Positions 1-29,094 of a stretch of 29,094 bases of DNA are shown here, piece after piece; the stretch's first letter is position 1; every line of letters starts with the position of its first letter. The position numbers and the translations under genes are program-made. This stretch comes from a virus, in IMG/VR virus record IMGVR_UViG_3300035670_000998, positions 1-29,094 of that record. One strand, written 5' to 3'. The notes beneath the pieces were generated by a model. It made no database searches, was not told where the DNA came from, and saw only the letters and a list, made by a program, of their open reading frames with translations.

Positions 1-358
1 TTTTCATTGTAATTGGAACACATCCAAGTCTTTGAGAGTTAAGAGCTGTAATACAATTAGTTTCATCAAAGGTGCAGTAATATGCCCAGACATCACAGGA
101 TTCTGTAAGTTCATTTAATTTTTCTTTGGATAACCTTCCATAATGTGTAATGCCTTCTTGTTCCATTAATTTATTCATTCTATCTTTCCATCCCATCATG
201 TAAGGGTTATTAGCATAGCCAACATCAAACATTTTCCAGCCATACGCTATATGTAATTCTGCTCCGGGTATTTTCTCTTTAACTTGTGGCCATATTCTAA
301 GTAAGTGTTCGCAGCCACGATCGTAGGAACTGGCATATAGCATTCTAAATGGTTTCAT
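1..358 (-). CDS. Glycosyltransferase C-terminal half (GT-B fold, GT4-like), 3' end outside window
   Basis: The 119 visible codons read like the C-terminal Rossmann domain of a GT4-type glycosyltransferase. The opening strand (RMLYASSYDRGCEHLL) is the usual first strand and helix after the GT-B hinge, and the later segment FDETNCITALNSQRLG corresponds to the nucleotide-sugar EX7E region. The second Glu of EX7E is Asn here. The start ATG follows AAAGGA by 6 nt, a good ribosome site, and overlaps the previous small gene by 14 nt. The matching N-terminal half is a separate gene at 898-2715. Together they would form one enzyme, probably modifying virion or host-surface glycans; that role is inferred. 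The gene continues past the left edge. Confidence 0.75.
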   Translation of the reverse strand, partial: MKPFRMLYASSYDRGCEHLLRIWPQVKEKIPGAELHIAYGWKMFDVGYANNPYMMGWKDRMNKLMEQEGITHYGRLSKEKLNELTESCDVWAYYCTFDETNCITALNSQRLGCVPITMK

Positions 359-584
359 TTTTATTCCTTTCTAACTTTTCAATATCTGCATTTATTTGTT
401 TTATATCTCTTTCATGCATTCTGAAAATAGCATCAAACTCTTTAAGTATTGCTTCTAAAGAATTTTTGCCAGAATTATAGTTATTGAGATTTTCATTTAG
501 GTAATAAATCATAAATTTATAATGTTCCATTTTCTCATGAAGCATTACAAACTTTTCTGGACTGTGATATTCACCTCTATTCAT
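345..584 (-). CDS. Small charged helical protein, 79 aa, between glycosyltransferase halves
   Basis: This is an unrecognised protein rich in Lys, Glu and Asn with long predicted helices (for example LEAILKEFDAIFRMHERDIK), likely coiled coil. The ATG at 584 overlaps the stop of the preceding gene (ATGAATAG), which suggests translational coupling. An upstream in-frame start at 641 would create a long overlap and is less likely. It is the last of three tiny genes separating the two halves of a GT-B glycosyltransferase. No catalytic motif or membrane segment is seen. Confidence 0.6.
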   Translation of the reverse strand: MNRGEYHSPEKFVMLHEKMEHYKFMIYYLNENLNNYNSGKNSLEAILKEFDAIFRMHERDIKQINADIEKLERNKNETI

Positions 585-777
585 TTTCTTCCTCATATTC
601 TTCAACTTCAATGTTTTTAATTGTTTCTGCCATTGAATCACATTTATCTTTAATGTTTTTTAAGAATTCTTTATACATCTCATTTTTAGATGTTTCTGGA
701 ATTGTTTTGTCTAAATACATAAGTTCTTGTCTAACTAATCTTAAATCTAAAATAAGTTTTGATTTTGTTAATCTCAT
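577..777 (-). CDS. Small hypothetical protein, 66 aa
   Basis: This is an unrecognised helical protein: a basic N-terminus (MRLTKSKLILDLRLVRQEL), then an acidic C-terminal tail (EVEEYEEENE). It starts at an ATG preceded by AAAGGAATAAAAA, an almost exact copy of the ribosome site of the glycosyltransferase C-half at 358. Its start overlaps the previous stop as ATGA. It belongs to the tightly coupled small-gene block inside the split glycosyltransferase. Confidence 0.6.
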   Translation of the reverse strand: MRLTKSKLILDLRLVRQELMYLDKTIPETSKNEMYKEFLKNIKDKCDSMAETIKNIEVEEYEEENE

Positions 778-905
778 TTTTTATTCCTTTGCATAATTTT
801 TTGAATCTCAGCTTCAAGAATTGCTTTTACTTTTACTCTTTCAACATCTGATAAGTTTTTAATTTGTTCTCTTGTTAGATTTAAGATATCTTCTAATTTA
901 TTCAT
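774..905 (-). CDS. Very small hypothetical protein, 43 aa
   Basis: This short frame starts at ATG 905, inside the last codons of the glycosyltransferase N-half (stop at 898-900), and ends in an ATGA overlap with the next gene. The product (MNKLEDILNLTREQIKNLSD...) is helical and charged. The 8 nt overlap upstream and ATGA overlap downstream argue that it is translated as part of the operon, although 43 codons alone give weak coding evidence. Function unknown. Confidence 0.45.
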   Translation of the reverse strand: MNKLEDILNLTREQIKNLSDVERVKVKAILEAEIQKIMQRNKK

Positions 906-2715
906 GCTCTACTACTCCATTTGAAATAACTACTGCTTTTGAATCTGGTAATGTTGGTAAGTTGGTTCTATGCCAAGAACTCTTAAAAAAGACTTTATCT
1001 ATTTTATTTATTCTTTCATTACTCCATCCTAATGGATCTACAATGTCATGTAAGTCCATCCATAATCTTTTTGCTTTAAGCATTGGAATATCTAATAAGT
1101 GAGGACTTCTCCAGAGAATCAAAGTTTCAAATTCATCATGCCAATTCATTAAATAATATGGAGCATATAAAACCCCATCAATTAATTCCATCTTTGGAGT
1201 ATCGCAAAATACTGTTACTTCATAACCCATATTTACCCATTCTTTTGATAAATAAATAACAGCAGATTCAGAACCTCCAATACCTTGTTTTAGTGAGTGA
1301 GCGTTCCAAGTTTCTAAATGTCTTGCACCAAATGATGCGTAATAAACGATAGATTTTTCGCCCCATTTTTTTGGAGGTAGTGAGTTTGCCAGTTGAGGTA
1401 AAAATTGTTCATCTTTATACTCATCCGGTGCTAGTTGTAGTAGTTTTAATACTTCGTCATATCTCTTTGCATTCATTAAATAGATTGCAAAGTTATAGAA
1501 TCCTCTAGCAACTAACTGTTTGTTTTGTTCAGCTAATGCAACATCCAAAAGACCATCAGGATTAACTTCATGTCTTTTTCTTGCCCATTGAACTGCCTCA
1601 TCTAAATCTTTTTTGTGCATTGCCGTTAAGTATTTAAGAGTTGTGAATAACATTTTTATTTCTAATGGGTTTCCTATAGTTGCTTTTGATTTATGCTCAC
1701 CTAAAACCTTTTCAACTAAATCTAAATAGTGAGTTGCAAGGTCGTGATTACCTAACTCCATATATAAGTTAGCAATTCTTAAATTAACTGTATGATTTTT
1801 TGGATGCTCAGCATTTGCTTGAAGGAAGTATCTTAATGATTCTTCTTTAGGTTTATTTAATTTTTGGGATATTAACCCTTTATACTCCCAAGCGTTAGCC
1901 TTTTCTTCGCTCCAGCCAGATACTTTTAAGTATTTATCAATATATTCGTCAGCTTTTCTTAACTTATCATCACCACCAACATCAAAATATGTCTTTGCTA
2001 GATAAAAAACTGTTCTTGGATCTGTGTAATTTTCCTCTTTAGCTTGTATTTCTAAGATTTGTACATTTCTCATCAAAGCACCTTTGGATTTCTCCATATC
2101 AGCAGTATGAATCCAGACTAAGTTTTGACCTATTTTAGGATCATAAGTGTATTGAACTGCTTTAATAGGAACTCCTTGATTAGGAATTAATACCTCATGA
2201 AGTCTTGATTTCCATTTATATTTCTTTGGATTAATAAATCTTTCTCTCTCGTGGTTTATAACTACTTCTTTTACTCTGCCTTTGTCATCAAAGACATTTG
2301 CATAGTTATAGGTGCAGAAAACCATATCAATATTTTGTGCTTTAGCGTTTGTAAGGATATTTCTTATCTCATTACCACCCTCTAATAAATCATCTGTATC
2401 TGCCCAAGATAAATAATCATATTCTTTATCTACAATGCTCCAGGATACACTTCTAGCCTCAGCAAAGTTAGAGAAGAACCATTTATCATTTTCATCTTTT
2501 GAATAGATTGCAGGGTGTGTTTCAGGGTTTGTAGAGATACTTTTACCATTATATTTCTTAACAAGTCTATGAATCTTGTCATGCTCACCAGATGTGCCTG
2601 TTACTGCAACGTATAGTCCATCAAAGTATGGCATAAAACTTGCCAGTGATTTCTCAAATAAGTTGTACTCTGAATTGTCTTTAACTATGTATGTTAATGC
2701 TATTTTTAAACTCAT
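898..2715 (-). CDS. Multidomain glycosyltransferase: GT2-like domain, TPR region, N-terminal half of GT-B domain
   Basis: The 605-aa protein has three visible parts. Residues 1-200 look like a GT-A/GT2-type glycosyltransferase with a metal-binding DTDD at 106-109. Residues about 210-440 are helical repeats of TPR type (LAKTYFDVGGDDKLRKADEY, LRIANLYMELGNHDLATHYL). Residues about 450-605 form the N-terminal Rossmann domain of a GT4-like GT-B enzyme (YYASFGARHLETW, GIGGSESAVIYLSKEWVNMG, WMDLHDIV, KVFFKSSWHR). It stops right after VVISNGV, the usual hinge of such enzymes; the complementary C-half is encoded at 1-358. It starts with an ATGA overlap to the 130-aa gene upstream. Likely role: glycosylation of virion or cell-surface components. 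Confidence 0.8.
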   Translation of the reverse strand: MSLKIALTYIVKDNSEYNLFEKSLASFMPYFDGLYVAVTGTSGEHDKIHRLVKKYNGKSISTNPETHPAIYSKDENDKWFFSNFAEARSVSWSIVDKEYDYLSWADTDDLLEGGNEIRNILTNAKAQNIDMVFCTYNYANVFDDKGRVKEVVINHERERFINPKKYKWKSRLHEVLIPNQGVPIKAVQYTYDPKIGQNLVWIHTADMEKSKGALMRNVQILEIQAKEENYTDPRTVFYLAKTYFDVGGDDKLRKADEYIDKYLKVSGWSEEKANAWEYKGLISQKLNKPKEESLRYFLQANAEHPKNHTVNLRIANLYMELGNHDLATHYLDLVEKVLGEHKSKATIGNPLEIKMLFTTLKYLTAMHKKDLDEAVQWARKRHEVNPDGLLDVALAEQNKQLVARGFYNFAIYLMNAKRYDEVLKLLQLAPDEYKDEQFLPQLANSLPPKKWGEKSIVYYASFGARHLETWNAHSLKQGIGGSESAVIYLSKEWVNMGYEVTVFCDTPKMELIDGVLYAPYYLMNWHDEFETLILWRSPHLLDIPMLKAKRLWMDLHDIVDPLGWSNERINKIDKVFFKSSWHRTNLPTLPDSKAVVISNGVVEHE

Positions 2716-3104
2716 ATTTTTGATGCCACCCTTAATATAGGTAATGTTCTACTTAAACCCCTGACAAAATCCCTATCAAATTTTTGGTCTGGGAAGATTG
2801 CATAAATTAACTCTGCAAATTTTTCTGGTATTTCTAGTTGATGTTGGAGCATACTATCTCCTTCTTTAATAATAGCGTTACCATAACTATGCTGACTTCT
2901 TAGGTGAGAGATAGATACAAGATATTCACTATATGCTTCTGGAAATTCGCTTTTAAAAAAATCAAATAGTTTCTCAACTATTTCCCAATCTTTTTCTGTT
3001 TCTATTGTAGTTCCGGAATTTTTGGATAGTTCTACCAACTTGTCTATAAGTTCTACCTTTTTTCTAGGTACTTCTACGTAATAGATTTGGTCAGCAGTAT
3101 TCAT
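2712..3104 (-). CDS. Hypothetical protein, 130 aa, first gene of the glycosyltransferase operon
   Basis: This protein is not recognised. It appears soluble and mostly helical, with an acidic centre (WEIVEKLFDFFKSEFPEAYSEYL). No catalytic motif was found. Its stop overlaps the glycosyltransferase start (ATGA), so the two are probably translated together. There is no Shine-Dalgarno before ATG 3104; a weak -10 (GATAAA) lies 5 nt upstream of it, reminiscent of the leaderless arrangement of the late genes. It is separated from the capsid gene by a terminator. Confidence 0.65.
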   Translation of the reverse strand: MNTADQIYYVEVPRKKVELIDKLVELSKNSGTTIETEKDWEIVEKLFDFFKSEFPEAYSEYLVSISHLRSQHSYGNAIIKEGDSMLQHQLEIPEKFAELIYAIFPDQKFDRDFVRGLSRTLPILRVASKI

Positions 3105-3294: not shown

Positions 3295-4209
3295 TTATCC
3301 TAACTGATTGAATCCAGTTACTTTTACAGAAGCTGGTTCAGCGTAAGATTCTAGAGTCATCTCAGTGATGTATTGACCGAAGTCGTAGTCACCAGATTTT
3401 GCTAACTCTTGGAATTGAGGTTCTCTTCCCTCTAAGAATGCCATCTTGAATGTATCAAGTTTAAGAGCATAAAGAGTTGTAGATCCTGCAACGTTTCTTA
3501 CATCTTTGTGAGGAACGATTCTAACTACACCAGTTGAAGCTTCGAATACAGAAATGTTTCTGTATAATCTGTCAGTTTCATTTACATAGTTAGTTACGTT
3601 GGTTGTGAATGTTGAGATTTTTCTCTTTAATCCCATTGGACAAATTACTGTATCAGCAACATATTCATTTCCAACTTTGTCCCAAGACATTTGTAAGATA
3701 TCTTCAAGAGTATTTACTGATAAAGAAGTACCAGAAGCTAACGCAGAAACGTTAGTTGAGATACATCCATCAATACCAGCCATTCCTCTAGCAACACCGG
3801 AAGCTCCAGATGCTTTTGTACCATTAACAAGAGCGAACTCCATTTTAGCGTTCATTCTCATTAAAGCTTTTTCCTTTTGGAAAGCATAAGGATCTTGGTT
3901 TGTTGCAACAGCAACTGCTCTTTCAGTACCTGATACTTTAACTACTTCAGAAATGATAGCAGTTACGTTATTTGATCTAACAGGAGCTGTTAAATCAACA
4001 ACAGTAGCATCAGCACCTTCAATAGTGAAAGATACTGTTGTAGGTCTTGCTTGGTAGAAAGTAGGCCACTCGTGTAAAGTGTTTCTAGCAATGCTAGTTC
4101 CTAAATTTTCAACTAAGTAGTTTCCTCCCAAAGGAGATACGTCTTTTAAGATGCTAAGAAGAGATTCTCTTCTTGATGCGTCTTGGTAAGTTATTAATCC
4201 TATAGCCAT
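3295..4209 (-). CDS. Major capsid protein, SU10-like
   Basis: The 304-aa protein matches the pattern of the SU10-type major head protein family. It has a short N-terminal arm, a conserved segment around residues 45-60 (LHEWPTFYQARPTTV), Gly/Ala/Thr-rich beta regions, a central segment AMxRMNAKMEFALVNGTKA-like, and the C-terminal MAFLEGREPQFQELAKSGDYDFGQ typical of capsid spine strands. It directly follows the scaffold gene (27 nt gap) and is followed by a strong terminator, as expected for a highly expressed capsid gene. A ribosome site AGAGGTGA precedes the ATG by about 6 nt. Its length is within the usual range for this family. Confidence 0.85.
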   Translation of the reverse strand: MAIGLITYQDASRRESLLSILKDVSPLGGNYLVENLGTSIARNTLHEWPTFYQARPTTVSFTIEGADATVVDLTAPVRSNNVTAIISEVVKVSGTERAVAVATNQDPYAFQKEKALMRMNAKMEFALVNGTKASGASGVARGMAGIDGCISTNVSALASGTSLSVNTLEDILQMSWDKVGNEYVADTVICPMGLKRKISTFTTNVTNYVNETDRLYRNISVFEASTGVVRIVPHKDVRNVAGSTTLYALKLDTFKMAFLEGREPQFQELAKSGDYDFGQYITEMTLESYAEPASVKVTGFNQLG

Positions 4210-5157: not shown

Positions 5158-5179
5158 AATGGCTTTGGATTTTACTCCT
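5131..5179. repeat. Short direct repeat at the 3' end of the HNH gene
   Basis: GGCTTGGATTTTACTCCT (5131-5148) recurs as GGCTTTGGATTTTACTCCT (5161-5179). One copy spans the HNH stop codon and the other fills the terminator loop, as if the end of the gene was duplicated. Confidence 0.7.
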
Positions 5180-5447
5180 CGCCATCCTTTTGCCTTCGGT
5201 AGATTTCATCAAACATGGTCTTGCGACCTGACCAAGCACCATAGTGCCTGATATCGTGGCAAATAACGCACAATGTGCGTAAGTTGTTTGGATGATTACT
5301 ACCACCTGCACCTCTAGGAATAATATGATCTACTTCTAAGATAACTCTTGAGGTCTTGCCTCCACTACCACACATAACACAGTGAAAGTTATCTCTTTCT
5401 AGAATGGCATATCGTTCCTCCCTACTAAGTCTTGGTGTCTTAGCCAC
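5172..5447 (-). CDS. HNH endonuclease, 91 aa
   Basis: This is a compact HNH nuclease. A first zinc pair CVMC is at about 23-26, the VDHI catalytic His region at 39-42, the Asn of NNLRTLC at about 55 and the second zinc pair CVIC at 60-63, followed by HDIRH. I chose the GTG at 5447 because AGGAGG stands 6 nt before it; the longer frame from 5498 would overlap the upstream gene and has no ribosome site. Single-domain HNH proteins near phage packaging and head genes often assist DNA packaging, but others are free-standing homing nucleases; the sequence does not decide. Base composition is clearly richer in G+C (about 45-50% in the stretches counted) than the capsid genes beside it. Confidence 0.85.
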   Translation of the reverse strand: MAKTPRLSREERYAILERDNFHCVMCGSGGKTSRVILEVDHIIPRGAGGSNHPNNLRTLCVICHDIRHYGAWSGRKTMFDEIYRRQKDGEE

Positions 5448-5457
5448 ATAGCACCTC

Positions 5458-5637
5458 CTACTCGATTTGAGCATGAACCAGTTGCCATCCACCATCAATG
5501 TATGGTTTAGCAGCCTGGTTTGCTTGTTCCATCCAATCTTGAACAGGATTACGAGTTACTGTAAGCCACATAACAAGATTTCCATTCTCAGTCAGCTTGA
5601 TTAACTTAATAACCAGCTTTGTCTTATCCATGCTCAT
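5458..5637 (-). CDS. Small hypothetical protein, 59 aa, in the HNH cluster
   Basis: Not recognised. It has a short beta-type N-terminus (KTKLVIKLIKLTENGNLVMW), an acidic helix (DWMEQANQAAKPYI) and ends DGGWQLVHAQIE. The start at ATG 5637 was chosen because GGAG lies 9 nt upstream and the start overlaps the preceding gene by only 14 nt. The layout (strands, central helix, GW-V ending) resembles its neighbour at 5624-5839, so the two may be distant paralogues. It shares the higher G+C of the HNH cluster. Confidence 0.6.
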   Translation of the reverse strand: MSMDKTKLVIKLIKLTENGNLVMWLTVTRNPVQDWMEQANQAAKPYIDGGWQLVHAQIE

Positions 5638-5839: not shown

Positions 5840-5878
5840 ATCTCCCTCCTTAGATAATGCTACTTTTAGAATACTATC

Positions 5879-27953: not shown

Positions 27954-29094
27954 TTAAGCATTGTATGCATATAACCATTTAATTGTTCCATTGACTGAAA
28001 CTCTAATTTTATGTGAAAAAGTTGTAGCAGTTGATGAAGCAATAATAGGGTTACCAGCACCGATAGTAGTTTGAAATTGTATAAATTCTTCTGATAAATC
28101 TACCTGGTTTAAATAAAGAGCAGGAATTGCACCTGTTGCAGAAGTTTGTCTAATATCTCCTTGCCCAGCTGGGTTAGTAGTATTAACTCCAAGTCTATTT
28201 GTAGATGTAATTCTTACTGCTTCTGCACCTGCTGTTGCGAATCCAAGAGTATTTGTTGCTGGTCTAAACATTCCAATATCATTATCTAATGAAAAAGAAA
28301 AAGCAGGTAAAGCAGCTGTTCCTCCATTAACTGATAATGCCTGAGTATCTGTAATTCTAAAATCCTCAGTTCCATTTGTAGCAAAACCAATAGCATTAGT
28401 TCCTTGTCTAAACATTCCTGTATCTGGGTCATTAACAAATGAATAAGCTGGTAAAGCAGCTGTACCATTACCAGCTTCAATTTCTGCTGTAACAGTTAAT
28501 TCGTTTGTGTTTATTGTTGTTGCATTTGCAGTTATAGTATTAAGAGTATCTAAATTTACTATTGTTGCATTAGCATTTCCAAAGTAAAGTGTTCCAGTAT
28601 TTACATAAAAATTATTTAAGTTAAAGATTGTATTAACATTATCAATCTTAAAAACCTCTTGACCATTGTTGTTGGTCATTGATAACTGCTTATAATATTC
28701 AAAAAGAAATGCCTCACCTGAAGCGTTTGCTCTAAATCTTCCTCCGAAAGTACCATCAAATATAGCCTTTTGTACTCCTGTTTCATAAAGGTTATAGACA
28801 CCTGAATTTAATTGAGTCATTGTTGCAGTAGAAACTACAATCCCTGAAGAATAAATATCTGTAAATGAAACATTAGATGGGAGGTATTCTTGTGTTACAG
28901 AATTTAATGGTGCTAAAGAACCTAAACTTGGAAGGTTAAGTAAAGATGTATAACTTAAATCATTAAGGATTGCTAATGAACCAAGAGATGGTAAGTTAGT
29001 TAAACTTGTAAAAGAAACTGCAGGTAAGTTTTCATAAGTATCAGCATACATAGTTCCAACACTTACAGTTGAGATTACAGCATTTTCAGTTGCT
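27954..29094 (-). CDS. Tail fibre protein, 5' end outside window
   Basis: The frame stays open to the right edge without a stop, so the start lies outside; ATG 29051 is only an internal methionine. From 29051 the product has two NLPSLGSLA repeats, a beta-rich middle, and two adjacent repeats of the fibre type TAALPA(Y/F)SF...D-(T/I)GMFR--TN-(I/L)GFAT-G-E--RIT. It ends in a short globular tip (TGAIPALYLNQVDLSEEFIQ, IKWLYAYNA). Such proteins bind the host surface. Confidence 0.85.
   Translation of the reverse strand, partial: ATENAVISTVSVGTMYADTYENLPAVSFTSLTNLPSLGSLAILNDLSYTSLLNLPSLGSLAPLNSVTQEYLPSNVSFTDIYSSGIVVSTATMTQLNSGVYNLYETGVQKAIFDGTFGGRFRANASGEAFLFEYYKQLSMTNNNGQEVFKIDNVNTIFNLNNFYVNTGTLYFGNANATIVNLDTLNTITANATTINTNELTVTAEIEAGNGTAALPAYSFVNDPDTGMFRQGTNAIGFATNGTEDFRITDTQALSVNGGTAALPAFSFSLDNDIGMFRPATNTLGFATAGAEAVRITSTNRLGVNTTNPAGQGDIRQTSATGAIPALYLNQVDLSEEFIQFQTTIGAGNPIIASSTATTFSHKIRVSVNGTIKWLYAYNA
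28182..28472 (-). repeat. Two tandem fibre repeats of about 48 residues
   Basis: Codons for GTAALPAYSFVNDPDTGMFR onward and GTAALPAFSFSLDNDIGMFR onward are adjacent copies of the same repeat unit within the tail fibre gene. Confidence 0.8.

Follow-up and report, generated by a model that had tools for sequence, protein, structure and literature searches.

The window analysed here, the whole 29,094-nucleotide (nt) stretch of IMG/VR virus record IMGVR_UViG_3300035670_000998, carries tailed-phage structural genes (portal, terminase, major head protein and tail fibre) and, close to one end, genes for a protein of 605 amino acids (aa) and for a truncated protein of 119 aa. With a probability of about 0.8, these two proteins are the halves of one phage glycosyltransferase whose gene was split at the linker of its GT-B module, the halves being encoded in a coupled operon and most likely reassembling as a heterodimer, and the break having arisen several times. 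An initial annotation, made from the window alone, had also proposed gene fission at the GT-B hinge, but had ascribed it to the insertion of the three small genes that lie between the halves. Fission at the hinge was borne out, as homologues with both parts in one chain occupy the same place behind the capsid gene and many contigs are broken there; the role of the small genes as splitter had to be given up. The genes and features concerned, like all genes of the locus according to the open reading frame (ORF) listing and the sequence, are on the minus strand:

898..2715, minus: N-half gene, 605 aa, with a SunS-like GT2 domain, tetratricopeptide (TPR) repeats and the GT-B N-terminal Rossmann domain (ORF, Pfam, AlphaFold2, PDB fold matches)
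910..1374, minus: GT-B N-terminal domain inside the 605-aa protein, residues 448-602, last strand 594-596 (hidden Markov model (HMM) over relatives; DSSP of the model)
916..921, minus: conserved hinge Asn-Gly codons AAT GGA (sequence)
2..358, minus: C-half gene, GT-B C-terminal domain, first 119 aa, cut by the contig end (PF00534 match; identity to the related locus L002)
774..905, minus: 43-aa inserted gene (ORF; homologue in L002; approximate ratio of nonsynonymous to synonymous substitution, dN/dS, 0.23)
577..777, minus: 66-aa inserted gene, acidic C-terminus (ORF)
345..584, minus: 79-aa inserted gene, probable coiled coil (ORF)
2712..3104, minus: gene for a 130-aa protein, between the capsid gene and the N-half gene (ORF)
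3295..4209, minus: major capsid protein gene (phrog_1328 major head protein, E=3e-45)

The 605-aa protein stops at the end of the GT-B N-terminal domain, as first annotated: its ORF ends with ...KAVVISNGVVEHE, four residues beyond VVISNGV and shortly after the last strand of the domain. The matching C-terminal domain was correctly placed in a new gene, which starts with an ATG at 358 (MKPFRMLYASSYDRG...) behind its own ribosome-site-like sequence, the Shine-Dalgarno-like AAGGAATAAAA. The gene lengths of 605, 43, 66 and 79 and the spacing given initially were also right, the measured gap between the N-half and C-half genes being 539 nt. The small genes are coupled, as had been claimed, each overlapping the next; in the order N-half, 43-aa, 66-aa, 79-aa and C-half gene the overlaps are 8, 4, 8 and 14 nt, and the five genes therefore form one coupled string. 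The 130-aa gene overlaps the N-half gene by 4 nt, and from there onward every gene overlaps its follower by 4 to 14 nt. Beyond what had been annotated, the 605-aa protein was found to consist of a GT2 domain, TPR repeats and a GT-B N-terminal domain, and the C-half gene to run off the contig at nt 2, with 119 of about 189 residues present.

The 605-aa protein gave a Pfam match to TPR_19 and a weak one to Glyco_transf_4, and the C-half matched PF00534 with E=5.5e-5, slightly under the curated cutoff. The scores stayed below the cutoffs for both GT-B families, with 26.4 against 28.5 bits for Glyco_transf_4 and 23.2 against 26.4 bits for Glycos_transf_1, the latter from an incomplete C-half. The window C-half is 79% identical to the complete 189-aa protein of L002, the nearest relative. 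In GT-B enzymes, this C-terminal domain binds the nucleotide sugar. The AlphaFold2 model of the 605-aa protein, built with 52 rows, had a mean predicted local distance difference test (pLDDT) score of 93.3, with residues 603-605 as the sole low-confidence stretch. Its best PDB fold matches were the SunS/ThuS S-glycosyltransferases (7msn, 7msk and 7msp, E down to 5e-15) over the GT2-TPR part, and a GT-A domain followed by TPR repeats with a SunS-like fold was found in the N-half; this GT2-TPR part is complete by itself. For the GT-B module, the unsplit version of locus L049 was modelled (pLDDT 95) and was closest to GT4 enzymes, the top Foldseek matches including PimA, MshA and BshA. Membership in the MurG/Alg13-Alg14 family was not found by sequence, Pfam and the best fold matches being GT4-type. 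A sequence search of the PDB with the N-half gave no match, and the C profile found CapJ alone (E=0.001).

Unsplit and split forms of the gene

IMG/VR, annotated phages, and bacterial and archaeal genomes were scanned and domain HMMs were then applied; removal of near-copies left 172 distinct loci, the window counted. The SunS-like GT2 domain, the TPR repeats and both GT-B domains are encoded in one chain in 99 of the 172 loci and the gene is split in the other 73, counts which are not estimates of prevalence, the searches having been seeded partly with split sequences. Homologues with both domains in a single chain and an unsplit gene in related phages, which the initial annotation had proposed to look for, were thus both found; the case that it had named as contrary, of halves that are always unrelated, independent proteins, is contradicted by the existence of the one-chain homologues. 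An example is MW202524.1 (phage ctKR88), in which a single gene for both parts follows the capsid gene and a 165-aa gene, and the split form occurs in an annotated complete genome as well (MW202497.1). In 108 of the 172 loci (107 and the window) the glycosyltransferase gene is preceded by a same-strand capsid gene, at a median distance of 504 nt, and this is so in both groups. Some split copies came from metagenome-assembled genomes of bacteria and DPANN archaea (L114-L117). The contigs that carry them resemble phage contigs and are perhaps mis-binned, because capsid-like genes adjoin the split copies in L114 and L117 and the 40-kb contig of L115 is titled 'loop'.

All the splits fall in the linker that leads from the conserved Asn-Gly(-Ile) at the end of the N domain to the first strand of the C domain (Y.SS.DRG), so that the two GT-B domains are encoded separately by two adjacent genes. 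In the models, the window N-half ends directly past the last strand of the N domain, and in the unsplit L049 module the linker is flanked by strands 146-148 and 169-175. In 36 of the 73 split loci there is no insert and the C gene comes immediately after the N gene, and 23 of these 36 have a 4-nt overlap of the ATGA type; the frame of the C gene relative to the N gene in the plain splits is +2 in 25, +1 in 10 and 0 in one. The codons of the hinge may also be the ribosome site, or Shine-Dalgarno core, of the next gene. In the window the hinge GGA stands 10 nt ahead of the next gene's ATG. GGA or GGG encodes the hinge Gly in 28 of 34 split genes versus 21 of 47 unsplit ones (p = 0.001), and the predicted anti-Shine-Dalgarno pairing at the hinge is stronger in split genes (p = 0.0009), both tests ignoring relatedness.

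Trees were made from the concatenated GT-B domains and rooted on stand-alone GT-B enzymes, one of them having 165 rows. The unsplit state was basal and, judged from these trees, is ancestral. The 165-row tree required at least 10 state changes and contained 11 maximal split-only clades; with about ten such changes, the break would therefore have recurred. A single exclusive clade of all split genes was rejected in a clade test. The clade to which the window belongs consists of 35 rows, all of them split, with a local support of 100, and holds many plain overlaps mixed with loci that carry inserts.

Evidence on the two halves as a probable single enzyme

If the two proteins are still one enzyme, both should be maintained together, and the comparison with relatives agrees with this. 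Between the window and L002, dN/dS was about 0.09 for the N-half and about 0.13 for the C-half, with synonymous sites near saturation. Split pairs had values of dN/dS similar to those of unsplit pairs, and invariant residues and motifs were equally kept in the two groups. The distances of N and C parts correlated no less in split loci (rho 0.76) than in unsplit ones (0.53). Apart from contig ends, an N-half lacked its downstream C-half only within a chimeric ORF, and a C-half lacked its N-half only in L248, whose N gene is frameshifted. Both halves are thus, by sequence comparison, under purifying selection and co-inherited. Formation of a heterodimer and retention of activity by the halves would be consistent with this, selection and co-divergence giving indirect support. 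The apparent frameshift of L248 (L248:3178-4960) lies in the GT-B N domain of the N-half gene and is either real or a sequencing error.

Several other explanations were considered for the paired genes. The N-half could be a SunS-like GT2-TPR enzyme in its own right and the C-half a leftover, the two proteins being independent or the GT-B module a decaying remnant. The completeness of the GT2-TPR part and the loss of the second EX7E Glu in most members would fit such decay; however, purifying selection on the GT-B halves is at the unsplit level, the same invariant residues are kept, and the halves are adjacent and ordered in non-truncated loci with divergence that co-varies, so we consider this explanation unlikely. 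Programmed ribosomal frameshifting, or readthrough of the overlap, might instead yield a single fused protein, a possibility suggested by the short overlap and the different frame of the C gene in most plain splits. It was rejected as very improbable: the frames vary (25, 10 and 1 of the 36 plain splits), the overlap is of the stop/start type with no conserved slippery site, and fusion is impossible where genes of up to 2 kb intervene, as well as in the window. An assembly or sequencing artefact at 340-910, conceivable for a single metagenomic contig that ends inside the C gene, is scarcely credible. Another 72 distinct loci, which come from many samples and include MW202497.1, have the same break, the close relative L002 has a homologous 44-aa gene in the gap, and all the intervening ORFs are open and overlap in order. 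Because the break is shared by these 72 loci the split is more than chance, and the initial view that it is not a random frameshift was upheld, many independent contigs breaking at the same point.

Some observations weigh against two halves of a working enzyme that was split repeatedly. The EX7E motif is incomplete: its first Glu is invariant, and the second is Asn in the window (C-half residue 107), Lys in most relatives and Glu in a minority. With this Glu replaced, it is not certain that the GT-B module is active, in split and unsplit forms alike. The C gene of the window, moreover, is incomplete. As to recurrence, a clade of all split rows together with four nested unsplit rows was not rejected by the approximately unbiased test (p-AU 0.37), and on the trees repeated fissions are not firmly separable from one fission followed by re-fusions; repeated fission was favoured because the nested unsplit genes retain the ancestral kind of linker.

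Taking two reassembling halves as the preferred explanation, the following course of events is proposed. The ancestral gene would have encoded a protein glycosyltransferase in which a GT4-like GT-B module is joined to a SunS-like GT2-TPR enzyme. On several occasions in these phages, the gene would have been cut where the two Rossmann domains of the module are linked. The resulting halves are presumably translated from a single operon with coupled translation, and most likely pair up as a heterodimer to restore a working GT-B enzyme, like Alg14/Alg13 and EpsE/EpsF. The stop/start junction, usually ATGA, would tolerate newcomers, and unrelated genes could pile up there; in the window the 43-aa gene would have come first, followed probably by the 66- and 79-aa genes. 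The combination of GT2-TPR and GT-B in one enzyme suggests that it glycosylates a protein in two steps, attaching one sugar first and another after it. The substrate is probably a virion protein, which is suggested because of the steady position behind the capsid gene.

Genes in the gap and the cause of the split

The gap is longer in 37 of the 73 split loci, and in nearly all of these it holds unrelated genes. Cpn60/GroEL genes, often with small companions, occupy the gap of ten loci that form a clade (L008, L021, L104, L129, L130, L131, L134, L135, L137 and L138). A DNA methyltransferase gene was found in the gap of L093, a methyltransferase gene in that of L050, and small genes, several with Zn-ribbon-like cysteines, in L057, L127, L164, L211 and L261. 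In L115 a GroEL-like gene lies directly upstream of the N-half gene rather than in the gap. The 58-aa gap gene of L045 (L045:5823-5999) is homologous to a gene that follows the C-half gene in L059 (L059:6455-6604), the same small gene thus standing on either side of the C gene. In L066, which is unsplit, a Zn-ribbon of about 42 residues lies in frame in the same linker, after nt 5841. An enlarged N/C gap (37 of 73 split loci) was more frequent than a long gap between capsid and glycosyltransferase genes (6 of 47; Fisher p = 2e-5, uncorrected for shared ancestry). Judged from this gene content, the junction is a landing site for genes. One case is a pair of loci of about 90% identity, L254 and L261: where L254 has a direct N/C overlap at ATGA, L261 has an additional gene for a 51-aa Zn-finger-like protein, placed exactly between two TATGA motifs, which by this comparison is a recent single-gene insertion at the split.

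Of the small genes in the window, only the 43-aa gene had a homologue, in L002 alone, where a 44-aa product (60% identical) is encoded at the same place and the gap is otherwise empty. For the 66- and 79-aa genes no relative was found among the fetched loci, and Pfam and PHROGs gave weak matches only. Insertion of three small genes as the cause of the split, as initially annotated, was rejected, since relatives in the same clade carry none or one. With one small gene in L002 and none, but an ATGA, in others of the clade, fission therefore came first and the small genes later; the mixture of plain overlaps and inserts in the clade likewise places the inserts after the split.

A different cause of the fissions, compatible with halves that reassemble, would be homing endonucleases: an HNH gene would have landed in the hinge and split the gene, and its subsequent loss or replacement would have left ATGA-coupled halves with a junction prone to insertion. 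HNH endonuclease genes do lie exactly in the gap of five loci (L004, L041, L115, L213 and L223), and splits by homing endonucleases are documented for Aeh1 nrdA and phage 25 gene 43 (PMC2988022). Furthermore, L213, with its HNH gene, and L164 make up a split pair beside the unsplit L210 in the tree. In L004 (L004:4423-5011) the HNH gene is preceded by a remnant of 14 codons from the start of a C-half gene and followed by another, divergent C-gene start, as if the endonuclease had been carried in with its own flank. On the other hand, most split loci have no HNH gene and 36 of the 73 have no insert at all, and in the window clade the HNH cases are nested among insert-free members and so are apparently later arrivals. 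No intron was found with Rfam in the window, L004 or L041, which speaks against this origin, and a self-splicing intron in the gap was rejected on the same result. Homing endonucleases as the cause are therefore possible, though they appear less likely than a split made without them. The gap of the window itself contains no endonuclease gene by Pfam and PHROGs. Elsewhere in the window, an HNH endonuclease gene lies at 5172-5498, upstream of the capsid region (phrog_589, E=3e-15).

A more speculative idea, which we hold to be rather improbable, is that the hinge split is selected and not just tolerated. The ATGA overlap would then be a recurrent port of gene acquisition in a capsid-linked glycosylation operon. 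Cargo such as GroEL, methyltransferases and small Zn or coiled-coil proteins like the 43-, 66- and 79-aa ones would be gained, perhaps via TATGA micro-homology, and stay coupled to both halves of the enzyme, some of it as accessory subunits.

Comparison with known systems

Split GT-B enzymes are known from Alg14/Alg13 and the bacterial EpsE/EpsF, which are related to MurG; the Alg14/Alg13 chains must interact for activity, and formation of their heterodimer is established (PMC8993221, PMC4973528). The phage genes resemble both in having the GT-B N- and C-terminal domains on two chains, with unsplit relatives in existence. They differ in that the family is GT4-like and found in phages, that a GT2-TPR enzyme is fused to the N-half, that the split recurred many times and that the gap collects genes; the heterodimer in the phage is proposed by analogy. 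Phage genes split by insertion of a homing endonuclease, with halves that still function, have been described for Aeh1 nrdA (mobE) and phage 25 gene 43 (PMC2988022), and wasp mitochondrial cox2 is another gene in pieces (PMC5374615). These cases and ours have in common that one gene has become two complementary ones, separated by foreign genes that are often nucleases. However, most gaps of the phage glycosyltransferase are without a nuclease and half are empty, the break is a recurrent domain hinge, and the inserts include GroEL, methyltransferase and tiny Zn-ribbon-like genes.

The SunS/ThuS glycocin S-glycosyltransferases (GT2 and TPR) are alike in the fold of the GT2-TPR part of the N-half, but the phage protein continues into the GT-B N domain and the sequence identity is about 15%. 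FlmG, a TPR and GT-B protein glycosyltransferase for flagellin (PMC7591256), shares TPR repeats and a GT-B domain with the phage enzyme and glycosylates the protein subunit of a polymer. Unlike the phage enzyme it has no extra GT2 domain and is unsplit, and the likeness noted is one of domain architecture.

No earlier description of split GT-B enzymes in phages was found in a text search of open-access papers, subscription papers being outside the search. The division of GT-B at the same domain boundary and the splitting of phage genes by homing endonucleases were already known; new are the split of a phage GT4-like enzyme, its repetition at a single hinge and the range of different genes that occupy the gap. 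One phage enzyme family thereby provides a natural series, at one defined hinge, that runs from unsplit genes through plain splits to splits holding one or several inserts, which makes gene splitting, the function of the halves and the gain of genes by phage operons directly testable, with near-identical pairs such as L254/L261 at hand. For annotation, 'two glycosyltransferases' of this kind are probably one enzyme.

Among the neighbouring genes, the place of the 130-aa gene is taken by genes of similar size in L004 (138 aa) and L007 (165 aa). Both ends of the contig lie inside open ORFs, the C-half at 2 and a tail-fibre-like ORF at 29093; judged from L002, the piece beyond the end in the C-half would hold the remainder of the glycosylation cassette.

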